Source of the DNA: Gammaproteobacteria bacterium
Lineage (GTDB): Bacteria > Pseudomonadota > Gammaproteobacteria > Steroidobacterales > XN24
Reading direction: 5' to 3'
DNA length: 64,000 nt
NCBI GenBank assembly: GCA_024640085.1
Contig: JAHEFR010000005.1
Coordinates: 62,001 to 126,000 of the forward strand
The position numbers and the translations under genes were made by a program. The notes under the pieces are model-generated. The model saw only the letters and a list, made by a program, of their open reading frames with translations. It searched no databases and was not told the DNA's origin. Of the stretch, positions 18,805 through 23,952 are shown in pieces; within the stretch, counting starts at the first letter, position 1, and the number at the start of each line of letters is the position of its first letter.

Positions 18805-19545
18805 ATGTCCCAGGAACCATTGATCGCCGTATTCGTCGACTTCGAGAATCTCGCCCTCGGCGTCCGCGATCTGAAAGGCGCAGCGCAGTTCGACATCCAG
18901 CTCGTCATAAAACGCCTGCTCGAGAAGGGCCGCATCGTCTACAGGCGCGCCTATTGCGACTGGAGCCAGTATCGCAACTACGTGCAGGAGTTCCATGCGA
19001 ACGGCGTGGAGATGATCGACATACCTCAGAGCAGGCAGAGCGGGAAGAACAGTGCCGATATCCACATGGTCGTCGACGCTCTCGACCTGTGCTACGCAAA
19101 ACAGCATATCGATATCTTCGCCTTGCTATCGGGAGACAGCGACTTCTCGGCCCTGGTGTCGAAACTCAAGGAAAATAACAAGAGGGTCATCGGCTGCGGG
19201 GTGAAGAGTTCGACCTCGAATCTGCTCATCGCAGGCTGTGACGAATTCATCTACTACGACGATCTGGTCCGTTCGGCGCGCAAGTCCCGGGGGCGGAAGA
19301 GCACGGATCGCAAGTCCGAGGCCATGGACCGGCTGGTGGAGATCGTCGAATCCCTCAGCGGAGAGTACGACCAGCTCTGGGGATCCATGGTCAAACAGAC
19401 GATCAAGCGAGTCTATCCCGGCTTCAGCGAATCCTATTACGGCTATGGCAGCTTCTCGGAAATGCTCGAAGATGGCGCCTCGCGCGGCATGATCCGCGCG
19501 GACTACGACAAAAGCCGGGGCAACTACCTTGTAGGCCTCCCCTAG
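18805..19545 (+). CDS. NYN-domain putative ribonuclease with C-terminal OST-HTH/LOTUS domain
   Basis: A 246-residue, two-domain protein. The NYN (PIN-like) nuclease domain occupies about 1-155, with the conserved acidic residues D12 and N15 (FVDFENL), D85 ([10 protein letters not shown]), D91, and D111/D113 (LLSGDSDF). An Arg/Lys-rich linker (157-170) leads to an OST-HTH/LOTUS-like RNA-binding domain (about 172-246). Homologues such as LabA/MARF1-type proteins cleave or bind RNA; the target here is unknown. AAAGGA precedes the ATG, and the gene begins 30 bases after gdhB, so the two are probably co-transcribed. Confidence 0.88.
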
Positions 19546-19619
19546 AAAGGCCATGGATGCCGCAATGCAGCACCAAAACCGCTAGAATTCAGGCATCCGG
19601 AAACCAGGGAGAATCGATC

Positions 19620-20369
19620 ATGTCTGTCAGGCTTGTCCTGCTCCGCCACGGCCAGAGCGAGTGGAACCTCAAGAACCTGTTCACCGGCTGGACCGACGTC
19701 GACCTGACGGACCAGGGCCGCAAGGAAGCCCTTGAGGCCGCCCGGCTACTGGAGGAGGAGGACCTGAAGTTCGACGTGGCCTTCACCTCGGTACTGAAAC
19801 GGGCGATCCGCACGCTGTGGATCGTCATGGACGACATGGACCGGATGTGGGTGCCCGTGCATCGAGCCTGGGAACTCAACGAACGTCATTACGGCGACCT
19901 GCAGGGGCTCAACAAGGCCGAGACCGTGGCGCGGCACGGAGCGGATCAGGTGCAGACCTGGCGCCGCTCCTACGGGACTCCACCTCCTGCGCTGGCTGAC
20001 GACGATCCCCGGCACCCCCGTTTCGACCCGCGGTACGCAGGCGTGGACCCCGCGCGGCTGCCTGGCACTGAGTCGCTGAAGGACACGCTGGCGCGTGTCC
20101 AGCCTTACTGGGATGCCAATATCTTGCCCTGCCTGAGGCAGGGAAAGAGGATACTCATCGCCGCTCACGGCAACAGCTTGAGGGCGCTGGTCAAGATGCT
20201 CGACGGAATGAGCGAGGAAGAGATCGTCGGGTTCAATATTCCGACCGGCGTCCCGCTGGTGTACGAGCTGGACGACGATCTGAAGTCCCGTGGCCGAACA
20301 TTCCTCGGCGACCCCGAGGCCGTCGCGGCCGCAGCCAAGGCCGTTGCGGATCAGGCCAAGGCTACCTGA
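19620..20369 (+). CDS. gpmA: 2,3-bisphosphoglycerate-dependent phosphoglycerate mutase
   Basis: A 249-residue cofactor-dependent mutase that interconverts 3- and 2-phosphoglycerate. The phosphohistidine is H10 in [23 protein letters not shown] and the second histidine in [13 protein letters not shown] complete the site. I chose the ATG at 19620 because AGGGAGA lies upstream and it gives the standard N-terminus. An earlier in-frame start at 19557 would add 21 unrelated residues. Confidence 0.96.
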
Positions 20370-20417
20370 CCGGGGCTTCTTCCCGGCGGCAGCGCGGTTG
20401 CGACGCTGACTGCGGAC

Positions 20418-20879
20418 TCATTCCACCGGTCCGGAGAAGCCACAGCGCGCGGACGTCCGATTGCATCCGGTCCTGTCGGCACCCGACTGGGTCTGGTACA
20501 GGACCGTAATCTTGGCGTAGCGCGGCTGGTCGCCGGTCGAAGCCAGGTCGACCGATAACTGCTGCCACTTCTCCTCGTTGCTGCGGTGGAACCCAAGGAT
20601 CTGGACGTCACCGATTGAACATGTCTTCTTCTCGATATCGCATTTCGACCAGTCCTTCCTCGTGCCCCTGTCCTGGGCATCCACGAATACCTTTGTCCTG
20701 GCGATCTTTGCGCCCAGCGGCAGCTTTACACCGAGCTGAACCTTACCGTTCCGTGGCACTTCCGCCGTGAAATACCGCAACTTCAGATCACTCTCCCCGC
20801 TCTTTCCGTATCCCGCATGGGCATCAGAGGCTCCGATCACAAGCGCCATGACCGTAGCCACCATCCACAAGCACTTCAT
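20418..20879 (-). CDS. Secreted four-cysteine protein, unknown function (paralogue A)
   Basis: A 153-residue predicted exported protein. A signal peptide of about 22 residues ends in DAHA. The mature part is mostly beta-strand-like, with paired cysteines C80/C87 and C139/C146, suggesting two small disulfide loops. It is clearly homologous to the next upstream gene (20971-21429) over about 115 residues, including GVKLP, DW-S-C, IGD and RCGF/KCGF. GGAGA lies 6 bases before the ATG at 20879, which is preferred over an upstream in-frame ATG at 20954. I recognise no named family. Convergent with gpmA. Confidence 0.82.
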   Translation of the reverse strand: MKCLWMVATVMALVIGASDAHAGYGKSGESDLKLRYFTAEVPRNGKVQLGVKLPLGAKIARTKVFVDAQDRGTRKDWSKCDIEKKTCSIGDVQILGFHRSNEEKWQQLSVDLASTGDQPRYAKITVLYQTQSGADRTGCNRTSARCGFSGPVE

Positions 20880-20970
20880 CCTGATTCTCCAGGGCGCACC
20901 GCAGGGCGTCCGTCTCCGGGGAGGGGGAAGGGATGGAGGCATTTCTGGCCCCACCCCCTCCCTGTGTGCG

Positions 20971-21429
20971 CTATTTCGCGGTCACGACATTCGAAAATCC
21001 GCACTTCTCGTATTCGCCGCAACCGGATTCGTCCTCGCCGGCCTGGGGCTGGAAGTTGACCTGGATCTTGGCAAATCGGACCTGACCTGAGCTGCTCCTG
21101 ACGTTCACCGCCAGTTCCTCCCACTTGTCCTTCTCCGCGCGGACGAAGCCGACGATCCTGGCGTCACCGATCTCGCACTTCTTGGTGTCGATGTTGCACG
21201 TGCTCCAATCCATCTTCTGGCCCTTGTCCGTCGAATCGACATACACGCTCGTCTTCGCGATCAGGGCGTTCCGGGGCAGCTTCACGCCGATGAGCACTTC
21301 CCCCCCGGGGGGAATCTCGGCAACATAGAATCGCTGCTCCAGCGCACGCTCGGCCTCCACGCCCTGGGCCTGACCAAGCACGGGAACCAGCACCGCGGCC
21401 AGCGCGCACGTCGTTATGAATTTCGTCAT
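20971..21429 (-). CDS. Secreted four-cysteine protein, unknown function (paralogue B)
   Basis: A 152-residue predicted exported protein with a signal peptide of about 22 residues ending near GQAQG. The mature part carries C78/C85 and C137/C143, in the same arrangement as the downstream paralogue A. The shared core reads AE-P-GG-V-IGVKLP, then K-VD--D-G---DWS-C-I--K-C-IGD, then GF--- -KW--L-V and CGF. By eye the two are roughly 40-45% identical, so this is a tandem duplication that has diverged. Gap to paralogue A is 91 bases. No catalytic motif is visible; a structural or ligand-binding envelope role is possible. Confidence 0.82.
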   Translation of the reverse strand: MTKFITTCALAAVLVPVLGQAQGVEAERALEQRFYVAEIPPGGEVLIGVKLPRNALIAKTSVYVDSTDKGQKMDWSTCNIDTKKCEIGDARIVGFVRAEKDKWEELAVNVRSSSGQVRFAKIQVNFQPQAGEDESGCGEYEKCGFSNVVTAK

Positions 21430-21537
21430 TCTCCATTCCTCCTATACGCCGTAGCTGGCGGACCTGCCTGCGAGGCAAAAAATTCGACACCCTGACACGA
21501 GCACGCGGACCGGCTCGTCATCCGCGGCAGGATATCG

Positions 21538-22326
21538 TCAATCCCTGAGCCGCATTTCTTCCGACCGCTCTCGGGCGGAGACGTTCAGTTCGTGGAGCTT
21601 GAGATACTTGATGGTCCTGTAGTTGGCCGCCAGCAGCGACCAGACGAACCCGGGGAACCCGTTCAGCCAGTTTCCCCGGAGCAGATAATAAACCAGAAAC
21701 GACACCGGCATCCGGCAAATGATTCCGGCCACCGACGCCCGCCTGCCGTCCCGCTGCATCTGCCGCGCCATGGTCGTCGTGTATCGATTGAACTTTTCGA
21801 AATACTCGTCCAGGTCCCGGTAGCTGTAGTGAAGCAGCCTCCCCTGAAATGTCCCAACCGGCCCCTGCACATGAGCTCGCTCGTGGATCGGCGCATCGTC
21901 GAACCCGCCCCGCCGCCGGTCGAAAAGCCGGAGTACCGGGTCCCGGGATTCGCTGCCGTGGGTGAACGGTCGGCCCATGAAACAGAGACGCCTCAAAACC
22001 TGGAAACCCGCGGGCTCGACGGTCGCGGACCGGCGCCAGGCCTGAATGGATGCCTGCAGCCGATCGTCCAGCACTTCGTCAGCGTCGACACTGAGGATCC
22101 AGTCGTGGCTCGCCGCCGCCGCTGCCAGGCGCTTCTGCGGCCCGTAGCCGAGAAATGGCTGCGCGATGACCCGGCAGTTAGGGTAGGCACCGGCGATCTC
22201 TAGCGTGCAGTCGGTGCTGCCCGAGTCCACGACCACGATCTCGTCGCACCATGCCACGGATTCCATGGTTCGGCCCAGGCTACGCTCTTCGTTGAGAGTG
22301 ATGATGACTGCGCTCAGTCGATGCAT
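21538..22326 (-). CDS. Family 2 glycosyltransferase, LPS-core type (WaaE/KdtX-like)
   Basis: A 262-residue GT-A fold transferase. It starts MHRLSAVIITLNEE, with VVDSGSTD at 33-40 and the metal-binding D81-A-D83 in SVDADE. The C-terminal YSYRDLDEYFEKFNRYTT is typical of the family that adds a beta-1,4-glucose to inner-core heptose. Donor and acceptor cannot be fixed from sequence alone. The ATG at 22326 is preferred: GGAG lies 10 bases upstream, and an alternative at 22353 adds nine residues. It is divergent from a Kdo/WaaP-type kinase, consistent with an LPS-core locus. Confidence 0.85.
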   Translation of the reverse strand: MHRLSAVIITLNEERSLGRTMESVAWCDEIVVVDSGSTDCTLEIAGAYPNCRVIAQPFLGYGPQKRLAAAAASHDWILSVDADEVLDDRLQASIQAWRRSATVEPAGFQVLRRLCFMGRPFTHGSESRDPVLRLFDRRRGGFDDAPIHERAHVQGPVGTFQGRLLHYSYRDLDEYFEKFNRYTTTMARQMQRDGRRASVAGIICRMPVSFLVYYLLRGNWLNGFPGFVWSLLAANYRTIKYLKLHELNVSARERSEEMRLRD

Positions 22327-22453
22327 CCGGGCGACGCTCCGCGGACAGGACAATTACCTTCGAATGGGTGAGACTATAAGGACACGCAGCCCGCTGGTCG
22401 ACTCTGCCAACCGTCGACCGCTGGCCATCGAACCCATTCTTGTCCAAAGGCCG

Positions 22454-23149
22454 ATGTTCCGATCCGACAGAGACAAGAACGGCCCCGCCGTTCGCCGCAT
22501 CCTCGCCTCTGGCCACCGGACCCTGATCCATCGGCGCGAGGTCCGTGGCGTGCTCCGGGAGGTCTTCCTGACCGACGACGGGCACGTCCTGAAGCGTTAC
22601 AGCCACAACGGCCCTCCCCCCCGGTTCCGGCAACCCTGGATCATGGAATACAGGGCGCTTCACCGCCTCGCCGGACGTGGCGCGCCCCGGGTGATCGGCT
22701 ATGTCACGGAGACGACGGATCGGGGCGTTCGAGCGATCCTCGCGCGGCGTTTCCTGCCCGGCGACGCCATCGGGGCGGTCGATCCAGCCCTCGCGACCGC
22801 GATCGCCGCCCTCCTGGCGACCTTCCACTGCGACGGCGTCACCACGGATGACGCTCATCTCCAGAATTTCATCCGCCTCCCGGAAGGTGGCCTGGCATTC
22901 CTGGACTTCGGGCGCGCCCGGACTTTCTTCCCCTGGAGCCCCCTGCTGCTCGCCGGGATCGCCGTCGATCTGCATCGTTTCCTGCGGGCGTCCGTGAAAA
23001 GCGATTCGCAGATCCGGAGACGCTTCCTCGACGAGTATTTCCGGCAGTGTCCCTTCGGTCCGATCCGGCGGAGCCTGATCCGCAGGCTGGTCGCGTTCGA
23101 TATGTGGCGTTACAGGCTCGTGAAGGGCACGGGACGGCTTCAGGCTTGA
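22454..23149 (+). CDS. Lipopolysaccharide core kinase family protein (KdkA/WaaP-like)
   Basis: A 231-residue eukaryote-like kinase fold. It shows the beta-3 lysine K47 (HVLKRYS), helix-C glutamate E65 (MEYRAL), catalytic loop DDAHLQNF (D133, N138) and FLDFGRA (D151). These match the family that phosphorylates Kdo or heptose of LPS inner core. AAAGG precedes the ATG at 22454; the same frame is open further upstream but lacks a ribosome binding site there. The stop overlaps the convergent patatin gene by 10 bases. The glycosyltransferase next door supports an LPS role. Confidence 0.82.
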   Translation: MFRSDRDKNGPAVRRILASGHRTLIHRREVRGVLREVFLTDDGHVLKRYSHNGPPPRFRQPWIMEYRALHRLAGRGAPRVIGYVTETTDRGVRAILARRFLPGDAIGAVDPALATAIAALLATFHCDGVTTDDAHLQNFIRLPEGGLAFLDFGRARTFFPWSPLLLAGIAVDLHRFLRASVKSDSQIRRRFLDEYFRQCPFGPIRRSLIRRLVAFDMWRYRLVKGTGRLQA

Positions 23150-23952
23150 TCCGCAAGCCTGGCCTCGGCGATTTCGGCGCCGAGGGCTATCAGCTCCGCA
23201 GCCCTGTAGAACTCGTAGGACGTACACGCGTCACGGGGAATCTCGATCACGACATCTGGAGAGTAGGCCGCGAGCTTGAGCCTGGCGATGGCGTTCTGCA
23301 TCGTGTCCAGGGTCATGGCCATCGCGTCCAAGATTCCCGGGACGGCCACCTCCGATTTTTTTTCGGGCAACTCGCGGGACCGGCGCCCACTGGCGTTGAC
23401 GGCGATAATGAAATCCGTGGCGTGGTTTAACGCCGGCGCGATCGGCAGAGGATTCAGCAGCCCGCCGTCCACCAGTATCCGCCCCTGATATTCCCACGGG
23501 GTGAAGATCGTCGGGATCGCCATGGACGCCCGGATGGCGTCGAACAGCGGCCCGCTGTTGAGCCATATCTCCCGCTGCTCCAGCAGGTCAGTGGCGACCG
23601 CCGTGAATCCGACTTCGAGGTCCTCGATGTTGTGCTCCCCGGTAATCTCGCGAAGGGCCCCGATGATCCGTTCCCCCTTGAACAATCCCTGACGGCCGAA
23701 AGACAGGTCCAGCAGGCCGATGACGTCCTTGCGTTCCAGCGCGCAAGCCCACGTCTCGTATGCTTCCAGTTCGCCGGCGGCAAAAATGCCGCCGACCAGG
23801 GCCCCCATGGAACACCCGGAAATGTACGTGATGTTGACGCCGACGGACTGCAGGTACTTGATGACACCGATATGGGCCAGCCCCCTGGCGCCTCCGCTGC
23901 CGAGGACGAGGGCGACCGACTTCCCCGAGTACTGACACGATTTCTTTTTCAT
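23140..23952 (-). CDS. Patatin-like phospholipase (RssA/NTE type)
   Basis: A 270-residue patatin-domain acyl hydrolase with a Ser-Asp dyad. The oxyanion glycines GSGGARGLAHIG are at 18-29, the nucleophile S48 is in GCSMG, and D162 is in VDGGLLNPLP. It probably releases fatty acids from lipids. It starts one base after the stop of the enoyl-CoA hydratase, so it is the last gene of the acyl-CoA operon that begins at the thiolase, which would link lipid cleavage to beta-oxidation. No signal peptide is seen; it is probably cytoplasmic or membrane-peripheral. Confidence 0.9.
   Translation of the reverse strand: MKKKSCQYSGKSVALVLGSGGARGLAHIGVIKYLQSVGVNITYISGCSMGALVGGIFAAGELEAYETWACALERKDVIGLLDLSFGRQGLFKGERIIGALREITGEHNIEDLEVGFTAVATDLLEQREIWLNSGPLFDAIRASMAIPTIFTPWEYQGRILVDGGLLNPLPIAPALNHATDFIIAVNASGRRSRELPEKKSEVAVPGILDAMAMTLDTMQNAIARLKLAAYSPDVVIEIPRDACTSYEFYRAAELIALGAEIAEARLADQA
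23141..23161. terminator. Hairpin at the convergent kinase/patatin ends
   Basis: CAGGCTT-7 bases-AAGCCTG forms a perfect 7-bp stem. It spans the overlapping stop codons of the kinase (ends 23149) and patatin (ends 23140). It lacks a U-run on either strand, so terminator activity is uncertain; it may instead protect 3' ends. Confidence 0.3.

Follow-up and report, generated by a model that had tools for sequence, protein, structure and literature searches.

Ig-like domains of Gram-positive pilins and adhesins are parts of larger, sortase-anchored proteins. Several of them, namely FimP of Actinomyces oris (PDB 3uxf), SpaA (3htl), SAK_1440 (4uzg) and collagen-binding-type domains, resemble the predicted structures of the two small proteins described here, as all-beta sandwiches with ~105 residues aligned. 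Another structural match, TTHA1873 from Thermus thermophilus (PDB 7wrk, 7wwn and 7wwo), carries the title 'hypothetical protein'; in a limited collection of papers, no text was retrieved by its name, and nothing relevant by its PDB codes. I analysed a stretch of gammaproteobacterial DNA of 64,000 nucleotides (hereafter referred to as the window), which encodes the adjacent proteins P0001 and P0002 (Table 1). The reading that I favour, and to which I give about an even chance, is that these are tandem duplicates, encoding lineage-specific, Sec-exported, disulfide-clasped, Ig-like binders without catalytic activity, which act periplasmically or extracellularly.

Table 1. Coordinates of the gene pair and of the genes around it, in window positions.
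Feature	Position	Strand	Description
Phosphoglycerate-mutase-like gene (His_Phos_1)	19599..20369	+	PF00300, E 1.1e-34; convergent with the pair (encoded on +), syntenic marker
P0001	20418..20879	-	153 aa, apparently exported paralogue, second gene of the pair
P0002	20971..21429	-	152 aa, apparently exported, first gene of the pair
Family 2 glycosyltransferase	21538..22341	-	PF00535, E 7.5e-16
Kinase-like gene	22454-23149	+	Adjoins the glycosyltransferase

The initial annotation had reported two neighbouring open reading frames, with about 115 aligned residues, a common cysteine pattern and common GVKLP, DWS-C and CGF blocks. Both frames are present at the positions it gave, and both lie on the minus strand. 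In a single BLASTP comparison, their products are identical at 63 of 146 aligned residues (43%, E 1e-44), a somewhat longer alignment than reported; judged on sequence, this similarity is far beyond chance. The three blocks are common to both proteins, as is a C-x6-C spacing in the middle, and the spacing near the end is C-x5-C in P0002 and C-x6-C in P0001. The present analysis adds three points: the orientation of the frames, a third paralogue elsewhere in the genome, and a gene for a glycosyltransferase immediately upstream of the pair, in the same orientation.

An AGGAGG motif is found 8 nt 5' of the P0002 ATG. For P0001, the ATG at 20879 was preferred over a GTG at 20954, since it is preceded by GGAG and followed by a signal-like segment. 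By eye, both N-termini show a short hydrophobic segment and a possible cleavage site, apparently a putative type I signal peptide, and no lipobox was seen at the expected place. Codon differences between the two genes amount to 0.56 at position 3, and to 0.37 and 0.39 at positions 1 and 2, with a different codon used at 33 of the 64 identical residues in this comparison, a pattern as expected for two protein genes that would both be under selection. Their GC content is 0.589 and 0.610, versus 0.642 for the window, and their GC3 is 0.75 and 0.82, versus 0.79-0.84 in the seven neighbours computed. The spacer between the two genes contains an imperfect inverted repeat (20919-20962; 14 nt, G-rich/C-rich, 86% complementary), possibly due to chance.

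The third paralogue, identified by a search of the window's own genome, is located on contig C49 (33% identity, E 8.2e-11), and is 181 or 198 residues long, according to the start chosen. With P0002 as the query, matches were obtained in 4 of 59 relatives, a count that includes the own genome. One homologue each is encoded by G001, G003 and G004, all gammaproteobacterial genomes related to that of the window; together with P0001, P0002 and the C49 paralogue, these form the six-sequence set used below. Within the order, a profile of the six matched 4 of 396 genomes; it matched 1 of 369 genomes of the class (the own genome) and, at E 0.05, 2 of 398 genomes of the phylum (the own genome and a match that I rejected), these genomes being draws from larger groups, where relatives outside the sample are possible. 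The rejected match, in genome G779 (E 0.0078, 17.4 bits over 51 positions), falls in a 152-residue frame with one C-x6-C and without the four-cysteine pattern, antisense to a frame that I take to encode a CMP-Kdo synthetase; about three such matches are expected in 398 genomes. A first scan of named genomes returned no relative, and a second confirmed three loci among 67 stretches (L013-L015, from MAGs titled Gammaproteobacteria), the proteins of which coincide with those of G001, G003 and G004 and add no members. All accepted matches fall within the window's own taxonomic family, in which 3 of 7 genomes (G002, G005 and G006, of one genus) have no member. Among the genomes searched, the protein family is narrow in range.

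I also looked for traces of a mobile or phage origin. P0002 had no match at E 0.01 in 50,697 phage records or in 72,556 plasmid records, and in viral contigs no relative was confirmed. The window contains no tRNA or Rfam match, and positions 20300-21600 contain no direct repeat of at least 14 bases.

The initial annotation had proposed that loss of the cysteines in orthologues would count against it; all four are kept in the six sequences, down to 22% identity to P0002. This cysteine frame, the 43% identity of the paralogues and the existence of a third one bear out its view of a real family. In full-length P0002 numbering the cysteines are C78, C85, C137 and C143, and they are included in the 16 invariant columns of the six sequences, the others being R33, E38, P40, V49, P52, G70, W75, R97, R118, K121, V124 and G144. 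The family can be described by the pattern R-x-[YF], E-[IV]-P, W-x2/4-C-x6-C, R-[FY]-x-K and C-x5/6-C-G-[FY], with a signal-like segment seen by eye at the N-terminus; all six sequences carry it, which is a description rather than a test, as it was derived from the same six. The DsbA and DsbB Pfam families both score over the cut-off in the own genome, and disulfides can therefore probably be made, although the Pfam DsbA family also takes in other thioredoxin-like enzymes.

As the initial annotation had supposed, nothing credible was found in Pfam, NCBIfam, PHROGs, PADLOC or the PDB sequences. Pfam returned 0 families for P0001 and P0002, with a best E of 0.14 for all six members. The NCBIfam scan, which covered P0001-P0005, all members but the C49 paralogue, gave 11.8 bits for P0001 (cut-off 420) and 21.5 bits over residues 6-45 for P0005 (cut-off 44), and no match for P0002, P0003 or P0004. 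The best PDB sequence match to P0002 has an E of 0.74. Matches of the six-member profile to PDB sequences (best E 1.4) were taken as chance. PHROGs matches of P0001 and P0002 are weak and short, and the best PHROGs match (PHROG 37428, E 0.0057) spans only residues 10-35, largely the signal segment. Going by these sequence searches, P0001 and P0002 belong to an orphan family, with no described counterpart among the libraries searched.

The family is found at three unrelated loci. The C49 paralogue is flanked by an mgtE-like and a radical-SAM-like gene, as is the single match in G001, which is far from the NYN gene of that genome (one stretch inspected for this contains runs of N). The G003 member (L014) adjoins a glutamate-synthase-like gene; in the same genome the mgtE and radical SAM matches are only 60 bases apart, indicating a site without the family gene there. 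Gene-absent versions were seen for two of the three loci, in sister genomes, and none of the neighbouring genes is shared by all three. As a unit, the pair is not conserved. The claim of the initial annotation that the proteins are kept as a divergent pair is not borne out outside the window's genome, the only one in which two copies were seen at the locus; the syntenic locus in G004 (L015) is single-copy.

In the tree, the trio from the phosphoglycerate-mutase locus is split from the other trio with a support of 100/99. P0001 and P0002 are sisters (92/94, below the tool's mark of 95), with branch lengths of 1.29 and 0.66 respectively, and two alternative topologies are not rejected (p-AU 0.112 and 0.083). 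Considering the single-copy syntenic orthologue and the moderately supported sister grouping, a local duplication in the window's lineage would be the likeliest and simplest reading, and an older duplication with loss in G004 is possible.

The gene order in the window is dehydrogenase, NYN protein, phosphoglycerate mutase (presumably gpmA), P0001, P0002, glycosyltransferase, kinase-like, patatin; for genes without a family scan, labels are my assumption from the translations. The kinase-like gene, which I take to resemble lipopolysaccharide-core kinases, has no Pfam match to E 0.1 and no NCBIfam match to E 0.01. Its homologue in L031 (4481-5194, minus strand; 33% identity over 212 to the window gene) has a weak match to a serine/threonine kinase model (E 1.7e-4), below the cut-off. 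Across window positions 18805-23952 and the stretches L015, L030, L031 and L033, the region from the NYN and phosphoglycerate-mutase genes to the patatin gene varies among genomes of this taxonomic family: glycosyltransferase, kinase-like, porin-like and exported genes are present in some and missing from others, and the order of the flanks is constant.

The glycosyltransferase gene ends 108 bases from the P0002 start, on the same strand, and a single glycosyltransferase-P0002-P0001 operon is possible. The exported proteins could then be accessory envelope proteins of this enzyme, which build, hold or regulate a surface glycan, such as the lipopolysaccharide core. I consider this improbable, if less so than the other alternatives. 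It fits that in L015, where the window's order recurs with a single exported gene and without the kinase-like gene, the glycosyltransferase is again directly upstream of the exported gene, and that both genes are missing at this locus in G002 and G005, where almost nothing separates the phosphoglycerate-mutase gene from the patatin gene. At E 1e-30, G001, G002, G005 and G006 also gave no close relative of the glycosyltransferase. In G003, however, the locus comprises patatin, porin-like and kinase-like genes (the last 33% identical to the window's) and the glycosyltransferase, which adjoins the NYN gene, but neither the exported gene nor the phosphoglycerate mutase. No glycosyltransferase was recognised beside the other paralogue group, whether at the mgtE/radical SAM or at the glutamate-synthase-like locus, and the association is seen in only two genomes, of shared descent.

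Structural models of the mature proteins were generated with AlphaFold2, using five sequences as input. The models of P0002 (pLDDT 85.0, pTM 0.79) and P0001 (pLDDT 86.5, pTM 0.80) possess the same eight strands and no helix, in agreement with the strand-rich fold suggested initially. In the P0002 model, C57 and C64 (mature numbering) are located at a short hairpin, and C116 and C122 in the stretch before the last strand; from this strand assignment, local disulfides are plausible. VIA-align identified FimP as the best match for both models (P0002: Z 7.3, rmsd 3.4, 107 aligned; P0001: Z 7.0, rmsd 3.4, 105 aligned), and Gram-positive pilin or adhesin domains, going by their titles, make up about half of the 50 rows listed for each model. 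Phage tail, protease and GPI-transamidase domains, as well as TTHA1873, are also among the matches listed. All PDB matches are below Z 8 for both models, a range in which, as the program warns, a match may reflect only a common arrangement, and I therefore claim only the common fold, with both proteins predicted to be Ig-like beta-sandwiches. Foldseek gave no PDB match to the P0002 model at E <= 0.001, the top two being phage baseplate chains (E 2.7e-3 and 9.9e-3, TM 0.30 and 0.29). Against a viral structure library, a single match passed E <= 0.001 (6.9e-4, TM 0.38), and the many beta-sandwiches obtained came from diverse sources; I read these results as generic.

The VIA-align matches, FimP first and then further pilin and adhesin domains from Gram-positive bacteria, raise the question of whether P0001 and P0002 assemble with each other on the cell surface into a heteromer, as subunits of a polymer or adhesin, in the manner of pilin or MSCRAMM domains. 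This appears more doubtful still than a role beside the glycosyltransferase. Besides the low Z-scores, none of the six sequences has a C-terminal sortase signal: they continue for 5-22 residues beyond the CG[FY] motif, and LPxTG is absent from five of them, the LPATG of the G003 member being located mid-protein, just after the second conserved cysteine. No pilus or secretion genes were recognised by eye among the open reading frames listed around the loci, and the family is single-copy in three of the four genomes that have it. Least probable is a periplasmic inhibitor, acting on a protease, a lysozyme or a rival's toxin through the clasped loops, which would suit the size, apparent export, cysteine loops and paralogue divergence (44% identity, unequal branches), but for which there is no inhibitor-family match in Pfam or PDB sequences, no defence-family match for the six members in PADLOC, and no gene for a toxin or an immunity protein that could be recognised by eye in the listed neighbourhoods.

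A non-catalytic binder of the envelope or extracellular space is favoured over these alternatives since no neighbour is shared by the three loci and no enzyme-like motif was recognised in P0001 or P0002. The share of pilin and adhesin titles among the VIA-align rows also speaks for it. In such a binder, both proteins would be exported via Sec and lose their signal peptide, and each mature part would fold into a single eight-strand Ig-like beta-sandwich, with two short cysteine loops, one (C-x6-C) following the conserved Trp and the other (C-x5/6-C) ahead of the last strand. Both loops would probably be closed by disulfides, through the DsbA/DsbB system of the genome. A protein or a glycan may then be bound by the clasped loops, together with the conserved polar residues Arg12, Glu17, Arg76, Arg97 and Lys100 (mature P0002), and the duplicate copy would widen or split the binding specificity. 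A broader proposal, which I regard as unlikely, is that an orphan family of exported, disulfide-clasped beta-sandwiches arose within one gammaproteobacterial family and came to occupy, one gene at a time, three unrelated chromosomal loci, where I noticed no trace of mobile elements; duplication in one lineage would then have given a functionally split, possibly heteromeric pair for a lineage-specific surface ligand.

This analysis defines a small protein family that is absent from the family libraries searched here. It is an example of how exported proteins in uncultured Gammaproteobacteria can be specific to a lineage, here with a confidently predicted fold, a constant set of cysteines, and sister genomes in which the corresponding sites lack the gene. 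By itself the family reveals no new mechanism, and its significance is modest, as exported beta-sandwich proteins of orphan families with a narrow range appear to be common.

Compared to the Gram-positive pilin and adhesin domains, which reach Z 7.3 at best with ~10% identity, P0001 and P0002 differ in that their family is devoid of the C-terminal anchor motif of sortase proteins. TTHA1873, at most a possible relative, was absent from the PDB sequence matches of both P0002 and the six-member profile. It aligns to the models over 101-105 residues (Z 5.4-5.7, rmsd 3.5-4.0, 10-12% identity), with a Foldseek E of 0.031 and a probability of 0.91 for 7wrk against the P0002 model, and, like P0001 and P0002, it is a small stand-alone protein, of ~160 residues.
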